Shown here piece after piece: positions 1 to 62,957 of a stretch of 62,957 nt of DNA. Within the stretch, counting starts at the first letter, position 1, and the number at the start of each line of letters is the position of its first letter. Origin of the DNA: Bradyrhizobium sp. (lineage in GTDB: Bacteria > Pseudomonadota > Alphaproteobacteria > Rhizobiales > Xanthobacteraceae); NCBI GenBank assembly GCA_028290305.1, contig JAQGKC010000491.1:1-62957 (forward strand), written 5' to 3'. The notes under the pieces were generated by a model that did not search any database, was not told the origin of the DNA, and saw only the letters and a list, made by a program, of their open reading frames with translations. Both the position numbers and the translations under genes were made by a program.

Positions 1-127
1 CGGCGTGACCGCGCCAAACGACGGCGATCAGGTCATCGGGGCAATCCCGATCACCATCACCAAGAGCCGATACGTTCCGGTGCGCTGGAACGGTGAAGAG
101 CAGAAGGGCCTGAACAACAACGGCCCC
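1..127. repeat. Direct terminal repeat, left copy
   Basis: Bases 1-127 are identical to 62831-62957. The coat gene reads in frame across the join, so the repeat is best explained as the overlap left when a circular or circularly permuted genome is assembled. The length, 127, equals a maximum k-mer used by common short-read assemblers. It could instead be a real terminal repeat, but a repeat lying inside the coat gene would be an odd place for one. Confidence 0.95.
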
Positions 128-991
128 GGCGCGCGCAACATCGTGACCAATCAGTTCACGCAAGCATTCCGCACGCTGGCCAACGAGGTCGAGGCCGATG
201 TCGTGGCCGCCGCCTATAAGGGCGCATCACGAGCCTATGGCACGGCAGCCGCAACGCCGTTCGGTACGGCGAATGATCTCACCGACGCGGCCGGCGCCTT
301 GCAGGTTCTTGATGCGAACGGAGCGCCGCTTTCGGATCGGCAACTTGTGCTTGGCTCGTCCGCCATGTCCAATCTTCGCGGCAAGCAGAGCCTGCTGTTC
401 AAGGTCAACGAGGCCGGAACCGATCAGCTCTTGCGTGACGGCGTGATCGGGCGGCTCGAAGGATTCGACATCCACAACTCGAGCGGCGTCAAGGCTGTGA
501 CCAAGGGAACCGGCGCGTCCTACACGTCGGACACTGCCGGCTATGCGATCGGTGCGACCGCCATCACGCTCATCACCGGCACCGGCACGGTTCTCGCTGG
601 CGATGTGGTGACGTTCGCGGGCGATACCAACAAATACGTCGTGACCACGGGCGTTGCGGCTCCCGGCGTTATCACGCTCGCCAAGCCTGGGCTGCTGGTC
701 GCCCTGCCGACTTCGGCAGTCGCGATGACGGTTGGAGGCACCTTCACGCCCAACCTGGCGTTCAGCAAGTCGGCCATCATCCTCGCCACCCGCGCTCCGG
801 CCGTGCCACTCGATATGAACGGCCAGCCGATGGATATGGCCGAGGATCGCGTAATTCTCACCGATGCGTATTCGGGGATCAGCTTCGAGGTCTCGCTCTA
901 TCTGCAATACAGGCAGATCAAATACGAAATCGGCCTTGCCTGGGGAGAAGCGGTAGTGAAACCCGAATTTGTCAGTATTTTGCTCGGGTGA
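1..991 (+). CDS. Major capsid protein, P22 coat-like (C-terminal part; gene continues from window end)
   Basis: This is the rest of the coat gene that starts at 62652. Joined on the circle the protein is 389 residues, compared with 430 for P22 coat. It resembles the P22 coat family (HK97 fold). A beta-rich stretch around joined residues 240-305, containing FAGDTNKYVV, is where such coats carry an inserted immunoglobulin/telokin-like domain. The protein ends with EFVSILLG. Scaffold and portal genes lie upstream on the circle, which fits the role of building the icosahedral shell. The family is recognised by eye, not by a database search. Confidence 0.85.
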   Translation, partial: GVTAPNDGDQVIGAIPITITKSRYVPVRWNGEEQKGLNNNGPGARNIVTNQFTQAFRTLANEVEADVVAAAYKGASRAYGTAAATPFGTANDLTDAAGALQVLDANGAPLSDRQLVLGSSAMSNLRGKQSLLFKVNEAGTDQLLRDGVIGRLEGFDIHNSSGVKAVTKGTGASYTSDTAGYAIGATAITLITGTGTVLAGDVVTFAGDTNKYVVTTGVAAPGVITLAKPGLLVALPTSAVAMTVGGTFTPNLAFSKSAIILATRAPAVPLDMNGQPMDMAEDRVILTDAYSGISFEVSLYLQYRQIKYEIGLAWGEAVVKPEFVSILLG

Positions 992-56843: not shown

Positions 56844-57527
56844 ATGGCGAAGGAGCGTGACGTGGGCGAAAGACTGAGCCTTTCGGAGATCATCGGCCGT
56901 CGATTTGGGCGATTAGTCGTCGGCCAAGAGGTTGAATCAGCTACGGAGCCTTCAGGAAGGCGAAGGCGTATGTTCTCGGTGAAGTGCGACTGCGGGACAG
57001 AGTTTGTTGTATCCGGCAGGGGTGTGAGGAGCGGGAACACCAGTAGTTGTGGCTGTTTACAGCGTGAATTGGTCGCCGCCCGATCAACGGTGCACGGATC
57101 GGCCGGGCGCGCCAGCATGACCCCCGAGTATGTCGCGTGGCGCAACATGATAGCGCGCTGCGAGAATCAGGAATTGGACCATTACGACCGATATGGTGGC
57201 CGCGGCATATCTGTTTGCGCTCGCTGGCGTCACGGCGATGGAGGGCTGACCGGATTTGAGTGTTTTCTGACTGATGTAGGCCAAAAGCCGTCGTCCCAAC
57301 ATTCTATTGATCGCCTAGATAATGATCGCGGATATAGCCCCGACAACGTAACGTGGTCCGACAAGGTGTCACAAGCACGAAACCGCAACAACACAATCCG
57401 GGTGACCATTGAAGGCAGGGAGATGTCGTTGCTTGAGGCGTCGAGGTTTATCGGCGTGAAGTATACGACGGCCTATATGAGGATCCGGGCCGGCCGCTCT
57501 CTGGAAGACGCCTTGGGCATTAGGTAG
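56844..57527 (+). CDS. AP2/HNH-type homing endonuclease-like protein
   Basis: 227 residues. Zinc part CDCGTEFVVSGRGVRSGNTSSCGCLQ, then TPEYVAWRNMIARCENQELDHYDRYGGRGI, CARWRHGDGGLTGFECFLTDVG, SIDRLDNDRGYSPDNVTWSD, then a C-terminal HTH (SLLEASRFIGVKYTTAYMRI). Same family as the gene at 41963-42553. Placed between the replication block and terminase, a typical homing site. Confidence 0.8.
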   Translation: MAKERDVGERLSLSEIIGRRFGRLVVGQEVESATEPSGRRRRMFSVKCDCGTEFVVSGRGVRSGNTSSCGCLQRELVAARSTVHGSAGRASMTPEYVAWRNMIARCENQELDHYDRYGGRGISVCARWRHGDGGLTGFECFLTDVGQKPSSQHSIDRLDNDRGYSPDNVTWSDKVSQARNRNNTIRVTIEGREMSLLEASRFIGVKYTTAYMRIRAGRSLEDALGIR

Positions 57528-57545
57528 ATAGCGAGAAAGACTTAG

Positions 57546-57755
57546 ATGGGCGAAAGATTGAGCGGTCGCGTGAAGTTCTTCAATTCAGACAAGGGTTTTG
57601 GATTCGTGGCGCGCGACGACGGCCAGGGCGAGGTGTTCCTGCATGCCAGCGTTTTGCCGGAAGGGACCGGCGAGCTCGAGCCCGGCGACCCGGTGACGTT
57701 CGAGACGGCCGAGGGCAAGAGGGGCGTGCGGGCGGTGAAGGTGGCGCTGGTATGA
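57546..57755 (+). CDS. Cold-shock domain protein
   Basis: 69 residues. Both RNA-binding motifs are intact: KGFGFVARDD (RNP1) and EVFLHASVLP (RNP2) in a five-strand OB-fold of CspA size. It binds single-stranded nucleic acid and may melt RNA structure or assist late expression. It overlaps the small terminase start, so it is co-translated with packaging genes. Confidence 0.9.
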   Translation: MGERLSGRVKFFNSDKGFGFVARDDGQGEVFLHASVLPEGTGELEPGDPVTFETAEGKRGVRAVKVALV

Positions 57756-58246
57756 AGGCCGCTGTCCACTACAGCCCCGAGGTTGCCGACAAGATTCTAG
57801 GCCGCATGATCGCCGGCCTTTCGGTGACGCGCATCGCCCGCCAGCCCGGCATGCCGACCAAAGCGGCAATCATGAAGTGGGTGGAGACCAAGCCGGAATT
57901 CCGGGAGGTCTATCTGCGGGCGCAAGAAGGCCGCGGCTGCACCTACGCGGAAAAGGCCGTCGAGGCCGAATACGAACTGAACGACATCATTCGTATGATG
58001 CTCACCAAGCAAATCCTGCCCAGCGTAGGGCGTGCGATTATATCGGCGGTTCAGGCCAAGATCGACGTATTCAAATGGGGCGCTGGCCGCATGGCGCCCA
58101 AGATATTTGGCGAACGTGTGACCGCAGATCATACGGTCAACGTCACAGGTCAGGTTGAATTTACCGCACGGGACGCGCTTGCACATCAAATCGATCGCGT
58201 TGCTGACGCCGAGTCAGAGGCAGAGCGTCCTCTCGTCACTCACTGA
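57752..58246 (+). CDS. terS: Terminase small subunit
   Basis: 164 residues. Helix-turn-helix start (EVADKILGRMIAGLSVTRIARQPGMPTKAAIMKWVETKPEFREVYLRA), then a central helix (YAEKAVEAEYELNDIIRMML), like Sf6-type small terminases. It recognises the packaging site and forms a ring. Coupled with the cold-shock gene and overlapping the large subunit's possible starts. Confidence 0.82.
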   Translation: MKAAVHYSPEVADKILGRMIAGLSVTRIARQPGMPTKAAIMKWVETKPEFREVYLRAQEGRGCTYAEKAVEAEYELNDIIRMMLTKQILPSVGRAIISAVQAKIDVFKWGAGRMAPKIFGERVTADHTVNVTGQVEFTARDALAHQIDRVADAESEAERPLVTH

Positions 58247-59519
58247 GGCGCAGGCGGACGAACTCCTGCATGATTGGGAGTTTTTGGGACGCCCTGATCA
58301 ACTGCCGCCTCCGGGAGACTGGCGCACATGGCTGTTTCTCGCTGGTCGCGGCGCTGGCAAGACGCGCGCTGGGGCCGAGTGGGTTCGCTCCAAGATCCGG
58401 GCTGGGTACAGTCCGATTGCCCTGATCGCCCCAACCGCTGGCGATGCCCGTGATGTGATGGTTGAGGGTAACGGCGGTATCCTTTCCGTTTCATGGTCTA
58501 AGGATCGCGATGCCCGCGGGAACCTAATGGGGCGCCCGCTTTACGAGCCATCCAAACGCCGCCTGACTTGGTCGAATGGATCAACAGCCACACTATTCTC
58601 CGGCGAGGAGCCGGAACGGTTGCGCGGCCCGCAACACGCCGCGCTATGGGCCGATGAGGTCGCCGCTTGGCAAGACCCATCTGAAGCCTGGGATATGGCC
58701 ATGTTCGGCCTGCGGCTTGGAGATGACCCACAGGCGATGGTCACTACTACGCCGAAACCGATCCGAATAATCCGTGAGCTGATAAAATCGCCGACGTGCG
58801 TCATCACGCGCGCCACGACCTACGATAATCGCGCCAACCTCGCTGGAGCGTTCCTTTCGCAGATTGTCGCCAAGTACGAGGGCACGAGGCTCGGGCGGCA
58901 GGAGTTGCAGGGCGAACTTATCGAGGAACTCGAGGGCGCACTTTGGAACCGCGCGATGATCGAGCAGGCGCGGTTGAACCCGAATACCAAAGAACCATTA
59001 ACCGCCGTCCCGCCGATGAAGCGCATCGTTGTGGCAATCGACCCGGCCGTGACTGCGAAAGAGGAATCCAACCTGACCGGAATCGTGTGCGCTGGGCTTG
59101 GACAGGACGGCCGCGGCTACGTGCTCGCTGATAGTTCGGGCAAATATTCACCCAACGAATGGGCGCGCAGAGCTTTGGCGCAGTTTGATAGCCTCAAGGC
59201 AGACCGCATTATCGCCGAAGGCAATCAGGGCGGTGACTTGGTTCGTAACACGATCAGCACGCAGCGCCCGAATGCGCCAATCACAATCGTTCATGCCCGC
59301 CAAGGCAAGAGCGCCCGCGCCGAACCGATCGCCGCGCTTTATGAGCAAGGCCGCATTGGCCACGTCGGATCGTTCCCAGATTTGGAGGATCAGATGTGTT
59401 CATGGGAACCGCTTGGAAGCGCGCCGTCGCCGGATAGGATTGATGCAATGGTCTGGGCATTTACCGCGCTGATGGTTGACACTCACCCCGCCACGATCGT
59501 CAGCTTCTACGGGCGCTGA
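58200..59519 (+). CDS. terL: Terminase large subunit
   Basis: 439 residues from TTG 58200; TTG 58155 would add 15 residues and a longer overlap with terS. ATPase: LFLAGRGAGKTRAGAEW (Walker A), LIAPTAGDARD, LWADEVAAW (Walker B), TTTPKP (motif III). Nuclease: VVAIDPAVT, RIIAEGNQGGDLV, SPDRIDAMVWAF. Motif order resembles GTA / Terminase_6-type large subunits. It packages DNA and cuts concatemers. Confidence 0.92.
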   Translation: MLTPSQRQSVLSSLTEAQADELLHDWEFLGRPDQLPPPGDWRTWLFLAGRGAGKTRAGAEWVRSKIRAGYSPIALIAPTAGDARDVMVEGNGGILSVSWSKDRDARGNLMGRPLYEPSKRRLTWSNGSTATLFSGEEPERLRGPQHAALWADEVAAWQDPSEAWDMAMFGLRLGDDPQAMVTTTPKPIRIIRELIKSPTCVITRATTYDNRANLAGAFLSQIVAKYEGTRLGRQELQGELIEELEGALWNRAMIEQARLNPNTKEPLTAVPPMKRIVVAIDPAVTAKEESNLTGIVCAGLGQDGRGYVLADSSGKYSPNEWARRALAQFDSLKADRIIAEGNQGGDLVRNTISTQRPNAPITIVHARQGKSARAEPIAALYEQGRIGHVGSFPDLEDQMCSWEPLGSAPSPDRIDAMVWAFTALMVDTHPATIVSFYGR

Positions 59520-59522
59520 TTG

Positions 59523-61130
59523 ATGGCCGATGGCTTTCAGGACAATACCGAAAAAGGTCCGGACGAAAAGTCAGCCGATGCGAAGGCGATGGCGGCTTAT
59601 TGGGAACTCGTGAACACCATCCTCGGCGGTGCCGAGGCGATGAGATCCAAGCATCACGTCTATCTGCCGAAGTTCCCCGAGGAGAGCGTCGAGGATTACG
59701 ACCACCGCCGCCGCTGGGCTCCGTTCACCAACATTTACGAGGACATCTCGAAGAACCTTGCATCGAAGCCATTCGCCAAGGAGTTGACGCTCAAGGACGG
59801 CGCCGCGCAATCGCTTGTCGATCTGTGCGAGGACATCGACGGGCAAGGTAACAGCCTCCACGTCTTCGCCTCGGTCGTGTTCCAGCACGCGCTCGACAAC
59901 GCGATTGATTGGATCTTGGTCGACTACACCAAGTCTCCGATCGACGACCCCGGAAAGCCGCGCTCAATCGCCGAAGAGAAGGCGCAGGGGCTGCGGCCGT
60001 ATTGGGTGCATATCGGTGCTGATCGTGTGCTCGCGGTCTACAGCGATTTCCATCAAGGCGAAGAGATCATTATCCACGCGCGCATTAAGGAAGACTTGCT
60101 AGAGCGCGACCAATGGAGCGAGGCGGTTACGGAGCGCGTCCGGGTATTCAACCGCGACAAGATCGGCGACCGCGACTATGCGCCTGCGACGTTCGAGGTT
60201 TGGGAGAAGCAGCGCGACACCCAAGGCAAATGGGCCTGGATCAGCATTGAGGGGCCGACGCCAATCGACATCGGCGTGATCCCGATGGTGCCGTTCCTGA
60301 CCGGCAAGCGCATCGGCGCCTCGTGGCAGGTTCAACCGCCGTTGCGCGGCATAGCGATGCTGCAGGTTGAGGAATTCCAGCAGGAGTCAAACCTCAAGTC
60401 GGTGATGGAACTGACATGCTACCCGATGCTGGTCGGGGCGGGTGTCGGTCAGACGGTGGACGACAAGGGTGCGCCGATCCGTGTTCGCGCGGGTCCGCGT
60501 TCGGTATTGCTGGCCCCGATGAGCGGCACAGGCACGCACGGCGACTGGCACATCATTGAGCCGACCGCGCAATCGATCAAGACGCTGATTGATCAGCTCG
60601 ACTCCACCCAGAAGAATATGCGCGACCTCGGCATGCAGCCGCTGAACGTCGCGAACCTCACCGTCATCACGACCGCCAACATTGCCGAGAAGGCGCATTC
60701 CGCGGTGCAGGCTTGGGCGCTCGGGCTCAAGGACGCGCTCGAGCAGGCGTTCATCTTCACGACGATGTGGCTCAACGATGGGTCTGCCGAGCCAGAGGTC
60801 GACGTGTTCACAGATTTTGTTGTTCATTTGGAGAAGCACGCCGAGATCGAGACGCTGCTCAAGGCGCAATCGCAAAACGTGCTGAGCAAACTTACCTGCC
60901 AGTTGGAGTTCAAGCGGCGCGGTGTTCTTTCCGACAACTTTGATCCGGACGACGAGAAGCAGCAGCTCGCCGAGGAACAGCAGGGCTTGCAGGGCGAACA
61001 AGCGATCGATCCAGTGACGGGCGAGATCGTTCAGGCGCCGACGACGCCGGTCGTTATTGGCAAGCCCGCACCGGTGACGGTAAGGCCAGCGAAGGCTGCG
61101 CAAGTCAAGCCGCCGGTGACGGTGCAGTAA
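59523..61130 (+). CDS. Portal protein (DUF4055-type)
   Basis: 535 residues from ATG 59523. HHVYLPKFPEESVEDYDHRRRWAPFTNIYEDISKNLASKPF, FASVVFQHALDNAIDWILVDY, LTGKRIGASWQVQPPLRGIAML and a C-terminal helical region fit DUF4055, a portal family found with P22-like coats. The end (about 500-535) is Pro/Val-rich and flexible. It forms the DNA gate at one vertex. Confidence 0.85.
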   Translation: MADGFQDNTEKGPDEKSADAKAMAAYWELVNTILGGAEAMRSKHHVYLPKFPEESVEDYDHRRRWAPFTNIYEDISKNLASKPFAKELTLKDGAAQSLVDLCEDIDGQGNSLHVFASVVFQHALDNAIDWILVDYTKSPIDDPGKPRSIAEEKAQGLRPYWVHIGADRVLAVYSDFHQGEEIIIHARIKEDLLERDQWSEAVTERVRVFNRDKIGDRDYAPATFEVWEKQRDTQGKWAWISIEGPTPIDIGVIPMVPFLTGKRIGASWQVQPPLRGIAMLQVEEFQQESNLKSVMELTCYPMLVGAGVGQTVDDKGAPIRVRAGPRSVLLAPMSGTGTHGDWHIIEPTAQSIKTLIDQLDSTQKNMRDLGMQPLNVANLTVITTANIAEKAHSAVQAWALGLKDALEQAFIFTTMWLNDGSAEPEVDVFTDFVVHLEKHAEIETLLKAQSQNVLSKLTCQLEFKRRGVLSDNFDPDDEKQQLAEEQQGLQGEQAIDPVTGEIVQAPTTPVVIGKPAPVTVRPAKAAQVKPPVTVQ

Positions 61131-61147
61131 TCCAGAGTTTTGTCCGC

Positions 61148-61157
61148 CGCGGATGCG
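61148..61157 (+). other. GGAT-loop hairpin 1
   Basis: CGC-GGAT-GCG, the shortest of five hairpins of the same design in leaders of the scaffold and coat genes. Confidence 0.45.
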
Positions 61158-61168
61158 AGCGGGCGCAC

Positions 61169-61180
61169 GGGCGGATGCCC
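61169..61180 (+). other. GGAT-loop hairpin 2
   Basis: GGGC-GGAT-GCCC, perfect 4-bp stem in the 83-base gap before the scaffold gene. Confidence 0.55.
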
Positions 61181-61186
61181 ACAGGA

Positions 61187-61200
61187 CTGGCGGATGCCAG
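61187..61200 (+). other. GGAT-loop hairpin 3
   Basis: CTGGC-GGAT-GCCAG, perfect 5-bp stem directly upstream of the scaffold ribosome site (GGGAAGG). Confidence 0.6.
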
Positions 61201-61213
61201 GGAAGGCTAAACC

Positions 61214-62026
61214 ATGAAGCTCAAGACGGTAGACGTGAACGGAAAGACGTACGCGGAGGTGATTGACGGGAAACCCGTTTTTGTTGACGACGAGACAGGG
61301 AAAGATCTCGCATTCGACGTTCCTCATACGAAGTCGACGATCACGCGGCTCAATGGGGAAAGCAAAGCATTCAGAGAAAGGGCCGAAAAGGCCGAGACCA
61401 GTCTGAAGGCATTCGAGGGCATCGAAGACCCAGAAGCCGCCCGCAAGGCAATCGAAACGGTCGCCAATTTAGATTCCGGGAAATTACTTTCCGCCGGTAA
61501 GGTCGATGAGATCAAAGCCGCCGCGAAGAAAGCCGCCGAGGATCAGGTCGCCGCCGCTCAAAAAGGTTACACCGAGAAACTGGCCGTTACCGAGAAAGAG
61601 CGCGACGCGCTGCGCAATGATCTCTACGCCGAGAAGATCGGCGGCAGTTTCAACCGCTCGAAGCTGATCAGCGAGAAGGCCGCAATCCCCGCCGACATGA
61701 TGCAGGCGCGGTTCGGCGGCGCATTCAAGATCGAGGACAATCGGATCGTTGCCTATGACCAGGCCGGCAACAAAATCTTTTCGCGCGTCAAGGCTGGCGA
61801 GGTTGCCGACTTCGACGAGGCGCTTGAAACGCTCATCGATCAGTATCCGTACCGCGACCAAATCTTGAAGGGCGCCAATCATTCCGGCAGCGGCGCGCGC
61901 CCCGGCGCCAATGGCGCGAACGGCGGTAAGCGCACGATCTCCCGCACCGAATTCGAGAAGCTTGATCCGGTAGCGAAGCGCAATGCCATGGTCGGCAAGG
62001 ATGCGATGACGCTGATCGACGGCTAG
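61214..62026 (+). CDS. Scaffold-like protein (DUF6651-type)
   Basis: 270 residues. A short beta start (VDVNGKTYAEVIDGKPVFVDDETGKD), a long coiled coil (FRERAEKAETSLKAFEGIEDPEAARKA...), FNRSKLISEKAAIPADMMQARFGGAFKIEDNRIVAYDQAGN and a Gly-rich linker before ISRTEFEKLDPVAKRN. This is the layout of phage scaffolding proteins placed before the coat gene. It directs capsid assembly and is removed before packaging. Confidence 0.78.
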   Translation: MKLKTVDVNGKTYAEVIDGKPVFVDDETGKDLAFDVPHTKSTITRLNGESKAFRERAEKAETSLKAFEGIEDPEAARKAIETVANLDSGKLLSAGKVDEIKAAAKKAAEDQVAAAQKGYTEKLAVTEKERDALRNDLYAEKIGGSFNRSKLISEKAAIPADMMQARFGGAFKIEDNRIVAYDQAGNKIFSRVKAGEVADFDEALETLIDQYPYRDQILKGANHSGSGARPGANGANGGKRTISRTEFEKLDPVAKRNAMVGKDAMTLIDG

Positions 62027-62042
62027 GCAGAGAGGCGACAGA

Positions 62043-62507
62043 ATGAAGGGCGATCCGAAGATCGTTGGATACCTCAATCAGGCCGTGGTGGCCGAGCTAA
62101 CCGCCGTTGATGAGTATTTCATCGAATCTCGGCTGCTGAGCAATTGGGGCTTCAAGGATCTGGCGCACGGCTTCTGGCGCGATAGCAAGAGGGCGCATCG
62201 CAAGAACGCCCGTGCATTCATCGACCGCGTGCTGTTCCTCGAAGGCACGCCGACCATGAAGCCGAACACGTTTACGCCGGCAACATCGGTCGAGGCCGTA
62301 TTCAAGGCCGGTCTTGCCTCAGAAACAGCAATTCAGGCGCTCTACAACGAAGCCGCATCGGCGTCGGATGACGTGATGGACTTCGTTTCTGAGGAGTTGT
62401 TTCAGGACATCCTCGTTAAGACCGAGCGTCGTATCAAGAAGATCGAGACGCAGATCAAGCTCATCGGGAGCGTCGGTCTCGAATTGTACCTGCAAAAGAA
62501 AATCTGA
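62043..62507 (+). CDS. Bacterioferritin-like four-helix protein with degenerate ferroxidase site
   Basis: 154 residues, close to E. coli Bfr (158). It aligns over its whole length: MKGDPKIVGYLN, LTAVDEYF, LLSNWGF, LFLEGTP, VGLELYLQKKI. Of the ferroxidase ligands Glu18 and Glu94 remain, but positions equal to Glu51, His54, Glu127 and His130 are His (or Ala), Asn (or Lys), Thr and Arg; the haem ligand Met52 is Arg. The cage fold may persist without iron oxidation. Located between scaffold and coat genes, 16 bases after the scaffold stop. Confidence 0.82.
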   Translation: MKGDPKIVGYLNQAVVAELTAVDEYFIESRLLSNWGFKDLAHGFWRDSKRAHRKNARAFIDRVLFLEGTPTMKPNTFTPATSVEAVFKAGLASETAIQALYNEAASASDDVMDFVSEELFQDILVKTERRIKKIETQIKLIGSVGLELYLQKKI

Positions 62508-62523
62508 AATAGGCGAGCCGCAC

Positions 62524-62537
62524 CGGGCGGATGCCCG
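62524..62537 (+). other. GGAT-loop hairpin 4
   Basis: CGGGC-GGAT-GCCCG, perfect 5-bp stem, in the 144-base leader between the ferritin-like and coat genes. Confidence 0.6.
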
Positions 62538-62597
62538 CGCGACCCTCGCATCAATCTAAGCCTATCGGCCGGTCTCCTTGGATGAGGAACGGCGCAC

Positions 62598-62611
62598 GCG
62601 GCGGATGCCGC
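62598..62611 (+). other. GGAT-loop hairpin 5
   Basis: GCGGC-GGAT-GCCGC, perfect 5-bp stem, 29 bases before the coat ribosome site. Confidence 0.6.
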
Positions 62612-62651
62612 ATCGCAGCCAATCCCTCAACCTTTGCCATAGGAGGCTACC

Positions 62652-62957
62652 ATCTCGAACACCTTGACGGGACTAATCCCGACTCTCTACGAATCCCTCG
62701 ACGTCGTCGCCCGCGAGCTGATCGGCGCAATCCCCGCCGTCACTACCGACGCTTCGGTAGCCCGCGCCGCGAAAGGCCAGATCGTTGACTCGTTCGTCAC
62801 CCCGGCCGTCACGGCGTCCGATATCACCCCCGGCGTGACCGCGCCAAACGACGGCGATCAGGTCATCGGGGCAATCCCGATCACCATCACCAAGAGCCGA
62901 TACGTTCCGGTGCGCTGGAACGGTGAAGAGCAGAAGGGCCTGAACAACAACGGCCCC
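62652..62957 (+). CDS. Major capsid protein, P22 coat-like (N-terminal part; continues at base 1)
   Basis: A perfect ribosome site AGGAGG (62641-62646) ends five bases before an ATC at 62652 that begins (M)SNTLTGLIPTLYESLDVV. The frame has a TAG at 62640 and no ATG or GTG until well inside. A TTG at 62664 is 17 bases from the ribosome site and would remove the conserved first residues. Related coats start M-A/S-N-T-L, from memory, so ATC initiation (or a sequencing error in ATG) is the best reading. The frame enters the terminal repeat at 62831 and continues to 991. Confidence 0.85.
   Translation, partial: MSNTLTGLIPTLYESLDVVARELIGAIPAVTTDASVARAAKGQIVDSFVTPAVTASDITPGVTAPNDGDQVIGAIPITITKSRYVPVRWNGEEQKGLNNNGP
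62831..62957. repeat. Direct terminal repeat, right copy
   Basis: Identical to bases 1-127. Removing one copy closes the sequence into a circle of 62,830 bp with the coat gene intact. Confidence 0.95.

Follow-up and report, generated by a model that had tools for sequence, protein, structure and literature searches.

Why should a phage carry a bacterioferritin (Bfr)-like gene in the middle of the operon that builds its head? The question is raised by an open reading frame at 62043–62507 (+ strand, ATG start, product of 154 aa) in a DNA stretch of 62,957 nucleotides from Bradyrhizobium sp., referred to as the window in the following. As argued below, the product is probably, though by no means certainly, a Bfr-fold protein without haem ligand that is re-used in the head module, either in head assembly or within the virion.

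The head gene module of the window

The original prediction, made from the sequence, placed the gene between scaffold and coat genes. This holds true, as a scaffold-like gene (61214–62026) precedes it and the coat gene (from about 62652) follows. The genes lie on one strand in the order TerS, TerL, portal, scaffold-like gene, ferritin-like gene and coat, and the ferritin-like gene begins 16 bases past the scaffold stop codon. In the following list, clade A denotes the group formed by the window protein and its relatives, and L083 is the nearest relative by scaffold (76%).

57752..58246, + strand: terminase small subunit (TerS), Sf6 type (phrog_1482)
58155..59519, + strand: terminase large subunit (TerL; profile matches, Pfam and PHROG)
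59520..61130, + strand: portal protein (phrog_145, DUF4055)
61214..62026, + strand: head scaffold-like protein (phrog_784, phrog_206, DUF6651)
62008..62520, no strand: stretch without counterpart in L083, approximately the gene with short flanks (blastn blocks 61214–62008 and 62520–62956 against L083 563–1351 and 1372–1804)
62043..62507, + strand: Bfr-derived clade A protein, 154 aa (E18, H52 in the E51 slot, R53 in the Met52 slot, E94, R130, K132)
62652..62957, + strand: major coat gene, 5' part, continuing at window position 2 (tblastn with the L083 coat)
2..991, + strand: coat gene, 3' part (L083 coat homology; the window ends share 127 bases)

The scaffold-like protein matches phrog_784, a family of unknown function, with E 1.7e-90 and phrog_206, annotated as 'head scaffolding protein', with E 1.5e-15. 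The two coat parts are 92% (from about 62652) and 82% (from position 2) identical to the L083 coat. Since 127 identical bases occur at both window ends and the coat gene runs on across them, the contig is circular, with a length of 62,830 bp. A PHROG scan of 20 more open reading frames of the window found, among others, tail proteins, RecE- and RecT-like proteins, a DnaB-like helicase, a methyltransferase and HNH endonucleases.

Within 57400–62957, one promoter-like site (59185–59212) and two terminator-like sites (61265–61279 and 59995–59983) were detected, fewer than in shuffled sequences. A moron with its own promoter was considered and set aside, as no promoter- or terminator-like site lies at the gene within this scanned region. 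Two further observations concern the module itself. A gene for a cold-shock domain protein (57546–57755) is located directly upstream of the terminase genes. Moreover, the coat start expected from L083 homology, 62652, carries the codon ATC, while the first usual start is a TTG at 62664, which reflects either an unusual start or an assembly error.

A bacterioferritin homologue with altered metal and haem sites

The homology of the window protein to Bfrs is far beyond chance, as judged by profile and pairwise comparison. It matches the Pfam family Ferritin (PF00210) with E 2.4e-20 and 73.3 bits (gathering cut-off 24.5), which places it in the ferritin-like superfamily, while the NCBIfam equivalog bfr (TIGR00754) is matched with E 4.3e-32 and 111.3 bits, under the curated cut-off of 125.55. 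Dps family cut-offs are not reached (14.7 versus 300 and 13.5 versus 170 bits). Bfrs of known structure match over the whole length, the best being 4am2 from Blastochloris viridis (E 1.3e-31, residues 1–152), and the predicted end-to-end alignment with E. coli bacterioferritin is borne out by 1bcf (E 1e-23, residues 1–154). There is no tail past the Bfr end at residue 154, the protein having only the short common terminus QKKI or a sequence near it. An AlphaFold2 model built on a 54-sequence alignment has a mean pLDDT of 94.9, a pTM of 0.87 and five helices at Bfr-like places, and Foldseek superimposes this predicted model on 4am2 with TM 0.97 and rmsd 0.8.

When the ferroxidase ligands E18, E51, H54, E94, E127 and H130 are taken as reference (PMC3467274), alignment shows that E18 and E94 are kept, while E51 is replaced by H52, H54 by N55, E127 by T127 and H130 by R130. 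The E51 slot holds His52 because one residue is inserted near position 43. The haem ligand Met52 is replaced by R53. A register shift of helix B would restore neither E51 nor H54, as the sequence then gives A51 and K54. Hence, the earlier claims that two of six ferroxidase ligands survive and that the haem ligand is gone are confirmed, and both routes by which the prediction could have failed are closed: the ferritin fold is present in the model (pLDDT 94.9, TM 0.97) and the ligands are not intact at shifted positions. A chance match or mis-aligned ligands are likewise ruled out by alignment, register check and Foldseek. The Bfr residues E18, Y25, R30, R61, E94, D113, E128, E135 and Y149 are kept.

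Clade A: relatives with the same replacements

With E 1e-5 as the limit, a protein search returned 34 sequences, namely the window protein itself, 11 relatives at 52–73% identity and a remainder at no more than 41%. The window protein and the 11 relatives form one group, clade A, supported at 100/100 on a long stem in a 56-row tree. The 12 members were compared with 42 other Bfrs; as one of them (P0012) ends before residue 127, 11 members are counted from there on. Position 52 is His in all 12 members and Glu in all 42 others, and position 53, the Met52 haem slot, is Arg (ten) or His (two) in clade A and Met in 42 of 42 others. Position 130 is Arg in 11 of 11 members (His in 41 of 42 others), and at position 132 all 11 members have Lys where all 42 other Bfrs have Asp, so that the acidic residue of the B-pore is absent. 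The replacements at 52, 53, 130 and 132 occur in none of the 42 other Bfrs. Position 57 is Arg in 12 of 12 members and Asp or Glu in 41 of 42 others. Position 127 holds Thr, Leu or Ile in all 11 members and is also variable elsewhere, with Ser in eight of the 42 comparison Bfrs.

Some of these sites have been characterized in other Bfrs. D132 borders the B-pore (PMC3467274; PMC12120770), and D132F is reported among the changes with a pronounced loss of stored iron in a Shewanella Bfr (PMC12120770). According to the same study, D56 and R30 of PaBfrB are joined by a two-fold salt bridge, and haem-free Bfr subunits place Asp23 and a basic residue 52 at the two-fold interface. In clade A, an acidic residue at 22 or 23 is found in 12 of 12 members and K/R50 in 10 of 12; hence, the haem pocket seems to have been replaced by a charged contact, as far as residue patterns tell. 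D56 is Arg in all 12 members and Lys or Arg in 55 of 77 clade-B rows (see below), while it is Asp in 23 of 23 alpha-proteobacterial Bfrs. Several cage-contact residues (R30, R61, D113, E128 and E135) are kept in clade A, with D56 reversed in charge. The net charge at pH 7 amounts to −5.1 to +0.7 in clade A versus −18 to −7 in the 42 other Bfrs. Between the window protein and its relative in locus L001, dN is 0.29 and dS 1.59, the latter near saturation, giving a dN/dS of about 0.18. Judged from these substitution patterns, the window gene does not look like a decaying one and belongs to a clade with common replacements.

Gene places of clade A

Where do other clade A genes lie? A clade A profile scan of IMG/VR found two loci, L001 and L002, and a DNA-pattern scan led to the L001 contig again, while a single-sequence scan gave no confirmed locus in IMG/VR. 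In L001 (protein P0009), TerS, TerL and an HK97-type portal are followed after 10 bases by the ferritin-like gene, and the contig ends 29 bases later. In L002, TerS and TerL are followed 24 bases on by the gene, which is cut off by the contig end after 50 codons. In both loci, the visible neighbour is the upstream one. The window and L001 have different terminase and portal types, and the TerL proteins of L001 and L002 are 39.5% identical. All three members with a readable place (window, L001, L002) thus lie among head or packaging genes. As they occupy three different slots, clade A is not tied to one partner gene. Taken by themselves, these three loci are weak evidence.

In the lineage of the window, scaffold and coat are joined in L083 without a ferritin-like gene, and none of the 80 related-scaffold loci (best 80 of 390 confirmed) has a ferritin-like match within the 5 kb fetched; among these 80, a coat relative was recognised in 34, and six contigs stop less than 500 bases from the scaffold match. 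L084–L086 show a 719-base gap between scaffold and coat, and the open reading frames in the L084 gap are not ferritin-like by eye and gave no tblastn match. The gene is therefore accessory in this lineage. The gene order of the window does not recur beside the related scaffolds of these loci (0/80); head-gene neighbours are found in L001, L002 and clade B. A search of host genome contigs yielded matches of no more than 46% identity among the best 80 of 573 confirmed loci.

Clade B: a second group of altered bacterioferritins in head modules

A control scan of IMG/VR with ordinary Bfrs gave 15 loci and led to a second Bfr-derived group in which ferroxidase residues are altered, clade B, whose alignment (A5) then retrieved 55 loci. 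Flanks were read for 59 loci, i. e. these 55 together with L166, L167, L171 and L179, while L168–L170, which look like copies of L167, were left out; head neighbours were called by blastp against ten reference proteins. A head gene is the direct neighbour in 54 of the 59 loci, most of which had been retrieved by the profile of clade B itself; a large share of the contigs are near-copies. The five loci without head neighbour are L233 and L166 (on one contig), L234, L167 and L171.

The typical order in clade B is a lambda-type portal (PF05136) of about 570 aa, the ferritin-like gene, and a fusion of protease and major head protein (phrog_4523). Other arrangements occur as well. L175 and L181 feature an HK97-type portal and a ClpP-type protease, and L231 and L232 another HK97-type portal followed by a ClpP-type protease, with the coat also present in L231. 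In L172, a portal in two open reading frames precedes the ferritin-like gene and a head maturation protease (phrog_80), and L179 runs from portal via an endolysin-like open reading frame, the ferritin-like gene, a ClpP-type head maturation protease and another open reading frame to the coat. L001 of clade A and L175 of clade B use the same slot, right behind portals that are 33% identical. In a reverse scan with the L177 portal, 117 relatives were confirmed, of which the best 80, with listed identities of at least 71%, were examined. All of these best 80 of 117 carry a ferritin-like gene downstream of the portal, although many of them are near-copies and do not represent 80 independent events; 77 were assigned by a distance rule and three by inspection, namely L258 (direct, in an extended open reading frame), L261 (about 1.25 kb away) and L275 (about 0.77 kb away). 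A ferritin–protease fusion was considered as proof of contact and rejected, as it was found in one case (P0108) and in none of 90 protease or coat homologues, with L261 comprising two genes.

Met at position 52 occurs in none of the 54 head-adjacent loci (34 distinct proteins). Among the five other loci, it is present in four (three contigs); the fifth, L234, has His, nests in clade B and lacks a recognisable head neighbour. In L172 and L179, the complete set of six ferroxidase ligands is present, though not Met52. Since these two lie in head modules, ferroxidase loss is not needed for this location, and haem-ligand loss tracks location more strictly than ferroxidase loss does. From their residues, L172 and L179 are possible intermediates or possibly active ferroxidases in phage heads.

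In alignment A6 (53 clade-B rows), E18 is conserved in 48, E92 in 52 and Cys50 in 32 rows, and three histidines stand out: His120 (52/53), His125 (52/53) and His135 (49/53). A model of P0035 (pLDDT 97.2) matches the Bfr fold with TM up to 0.93 and has helix D interrupted at 127–134. Because of this insertion, clade-B ligand strings are unsure at 127; E128 and E135 are mostly absent, with the alignment near 128 being unsure. Clade B may have rebuilt a metal site via the new near-invariant His120, His125 and His135. At E 0.01, the Pfam ferritin family was called in the L173, L175 and L177 proteins and not in that of L180. Of 398 genomes of the phylum, 48 gave matches to the clade-B profile with E values not above 1e-25, at best 109 bits, and from their scores these matches were classed as ordinary Bfrs.

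Origins

In a 67-row tree, clade A stands beside alpha-proteobacterial Bfrs (93/88), clade B together with L231, L232 and L234 stands apart (100/100), and L172 and L179 are placed elsewhere on long branches. AU tests gave p 0.018 for all head rows in one clade, 0.243 for clades A and B together with nested rows, and 0.078 for clade A with L172 and L179. Hence, Bfrs were recruited once or more; more than one recruitment is favoured, without being proven.

Comparison with known systems

The window protein shares with Bfrs the whole-length homology, the predicted five-helix fold and the kept residues. It differs in that clade A lacks Met52 and four of six ligands, carries Lys instead of D132, is nearly neutral in charge and is encoded by a gene of a phage head operon. 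Similarities also exist to haem-free or ligand-poor subunits of hetero-Bfrs (SoBfr1, Bfr1 and Bfr2 of Magnetospirillum gryphiswaldense) and to FtnA of Pseudomonas aeruginosa: a basic residue is reported in place of Met52 (Lys52 in SoBfr1), together with Asp23 at the two-fold interface, and several ferroxidase ligands are described as mutated in M. gryphiswaldense Bfr2 (PMC12120770, PMC6529640). As described there, the subunits of hetero-Bfrs divide the sites between them, one retaining the ferroxidase centre and the other the haem ligand, whereas clade A has neither. Like the haem-free subunits, the window protein has Met52 replaced, but it lacks an intact ferroxidase centre as well as a tandem partner Bfr gene, its immediate neighbours being scaffold and coat. 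Moreover, hetero-Bfr subunits are encoded by host iron-storage genes, while the window gene belongs to a phage head module.

Encapsulin systems offer another parallel, as ferritin-like or Bfr cargo is reported to be encoded beside an HK97-type shell protein (PMC8346489). The window gene differs from them in belonging to a phage head module that includes terminase and portal genes, and its product in the absence of a C-terminal extension suited as targeting peptide and in the altered catalytic residues. Ferritin folds also occur in phage Dps or ferritin-like proteins of Lactobacillus phages, Gratiaviridae and Sajous1, at other genomic places; gp217 of Sajous1 is reported to have been found by mass spectrometry and modelled as a ferritin by Phyre2 (PMC10892097). 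The best BFVD matches to the window model have 18–19% identity, so that phage ferritin-fold proteins are not close in sequence as far as the BFVD comparison goes. In CsCl-purified virions of the Stenotrophomonas phage AXL1, the sole host protein in the reported list is a bacterioferritin, with two peptides (PMC9206674). This Bfr differs in being host-encoded and may be a mere co-purification of a protein cage.

No PHROG family corresponds to the window protein (best E 0.13), to that of L001 (no match at a cut-off of E 1e-3) or to those of L175, L177 and L180 (no match at E 0.01). Among 50,697 phage records, the window protein has no close relative, the best full-length match being 36% identical; tblastn gave eight matches at 30–36%, including two phage-labelled records that retain six ligands and Met52 (H1) or five of six and Met52 (H6). 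The L175 and L173 proteins gave three and two weak matches in these records, respectively (25–41%, E 5e-4 to 8e-3), among them H43 (MT837148). A description of a Bfr-like gene in phage head modules was not found in an open-access full-text library, which leaves preprints and most subscription papers outside, and no virion proteome of a phage with such a head module was found.

Possible roles of the head-module protein

What, then, could the protein do? On the preferred reading, the gene product would be made late together with the head proteins, as suggested by the 16-base spacing and the absence of a promoter- or terminator-like site of its own. It would pair via the Bfr-type dimer, with charged residues (R/H53, K/R50 and an acidic residue at 22 or 23) in place of the haem pocket, and would then join the prohead or virion as an internal protein, cargo or decoration rather than for iron storage. 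Expression with the head genes, a role in assembly and presence in particles are thus what we infer from gene order and residues. The original prediction that the fold was kept, the chemistry lost and a new structural job acquired, such as decoration, internal cage or scaffold partner, stands in part: it is in line with the common clade replacements, the recurrent head placement and the absence of Met52 in 54 of 54 loci. "Lost" chemistry fits clade A but is too strong for clade B, where near-invariant histidines have newly appeared and a metal site may have been rebuilt. A bolder and rather doubtful extension would be that phages domesticated Bfr more than once, placing a haem-less Bfr fold inside an HK97-fold prohead, with a His-rebuilt metal site in one clade and metal binding in the virion; this would be the phage counterpart of an encapsulin with ferritin cargo.

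Several other explanations deserve consideration. The protein might be a late metal or redox protein for sequestering iron, zinc or copper or for protecting DNA, its head operon providing timing and dose only. Phages are reported to carry ferritin-fold oxidative-stress genes such as Dps and Mn-catalase (PMC8008677, PMC6669764), and the full ligand sets of L172 and L179 as well as E18 (48/53), E92 (52/53) and the new histidines of clade B would suit this role, which is possible above all for these proteins. Yet clade A is devoid of four of the ferroxidase ligands, of Met52 and of the acidic B-pore residue, and timing alone need not place the gene downstream of the portal in all of the best 80 of 117 loci, so that we consider this explanation unlikely. 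Alternatively, a decoy subunit could enter host Bfr cages, dilute their ferroxidase and haem sites and thereby free iron for the phage. The cage contacts R30, R61, D113, E128 and E135 kept in clade A are compatible with such a decoy, different host Bfr subunit types are reported to co-assemble in vivo (PMC12120770), and hetero-Bfrs with ligand-poor subunits are on record (PMC6529640). However, the charged two-fold interface should hinder pairing with a haem-bearing subunit, no heterodimers are reported for SoBfr12, in which homodimers form first (PMC12120770), and E128 and E135 are mostly gone in clade B, as far as the unsure alignment near 128 allows. As a decoy would also leave the location among head genes unexplained, it is possible but quite unlikely and ranks below a head protein.

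Finally, the gene could be an accessory acquisition from a host Bfr that drifts without function. Its absence at the same site in L083 and from 80 of 80 related-scaffold loci (best 80 of 390, 5 kb) would be expected in this case, but neutral decay is disfavoured by the new residues common to the 12 clade A members, the clade support of 100/100 and the dN/dS of about 0.18 against L001, which renders it very improbable.

Should the head-module protein indeed reside in proheads or virions, a self-assembling cage fold would have been turned into a viral structural part beside HK97-fold shells. This would be the same pairing as in encapsulin iron stores and would bear on the kinship of encapsulins and phage heads. 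The presence of metal-binding proteins in phage particles, as envisaged in 'ferrojan horse' ideas, could then be tested directly. Moreover, a function could be assigned to a gene that many uncultured phages have between portal and protease and for which no PHROG family was matched by the members tested.

Hairpins and other side observations

Perfect hairpins with a GGAT tetraloop occur on the + strand of the window at 61169–61180, 61187–61200, 62524–62537 and 62598–62611, i. e. shortly upstream of the scaffold gene and in the interval that separates the ferritin-like gene from the coat. At least one such hairpin lies before the scaffold or in the scaffold–coat stretch in 73 of the 80 related-scaffold loci (L083–L162), many of which are near-copies, and 121 such GGAT hairpins were counted, as compared to 0–16 for eight control loops. 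The stems differ yet pair (GGGC/GCCC, GGCC/GGCC, GGTC/GACC). When the entire window is considered, GGAT hairpins are not conspicuous in number, with nine versus ten for GATG. A search of Rfam found nothing at gathering score in six sources and one chance-level match in 60900–62957. By loop and position, the element looks like a translational control element, and we presume its loop to resemble that of CsrA/RsmA type.

The 494-aa protein P0203 is listed as a prohead protease (PF04586) with a PF03860 domain, which we take to be a four-helix copper-binding domain, and has a Cys-rich tail; from its domain content, it may represent a further helical bundle that binds metal and is linked to head maturation. 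In addition, three BFVD proteins named prohead protease from uncultured Caudovirales (A0A6J7XDU5, A0A6J7WPK9 and A0A6J7WIS1) weakly match the ferritin-fold model and are possibly ferritin or Dps domains fused to proteases.
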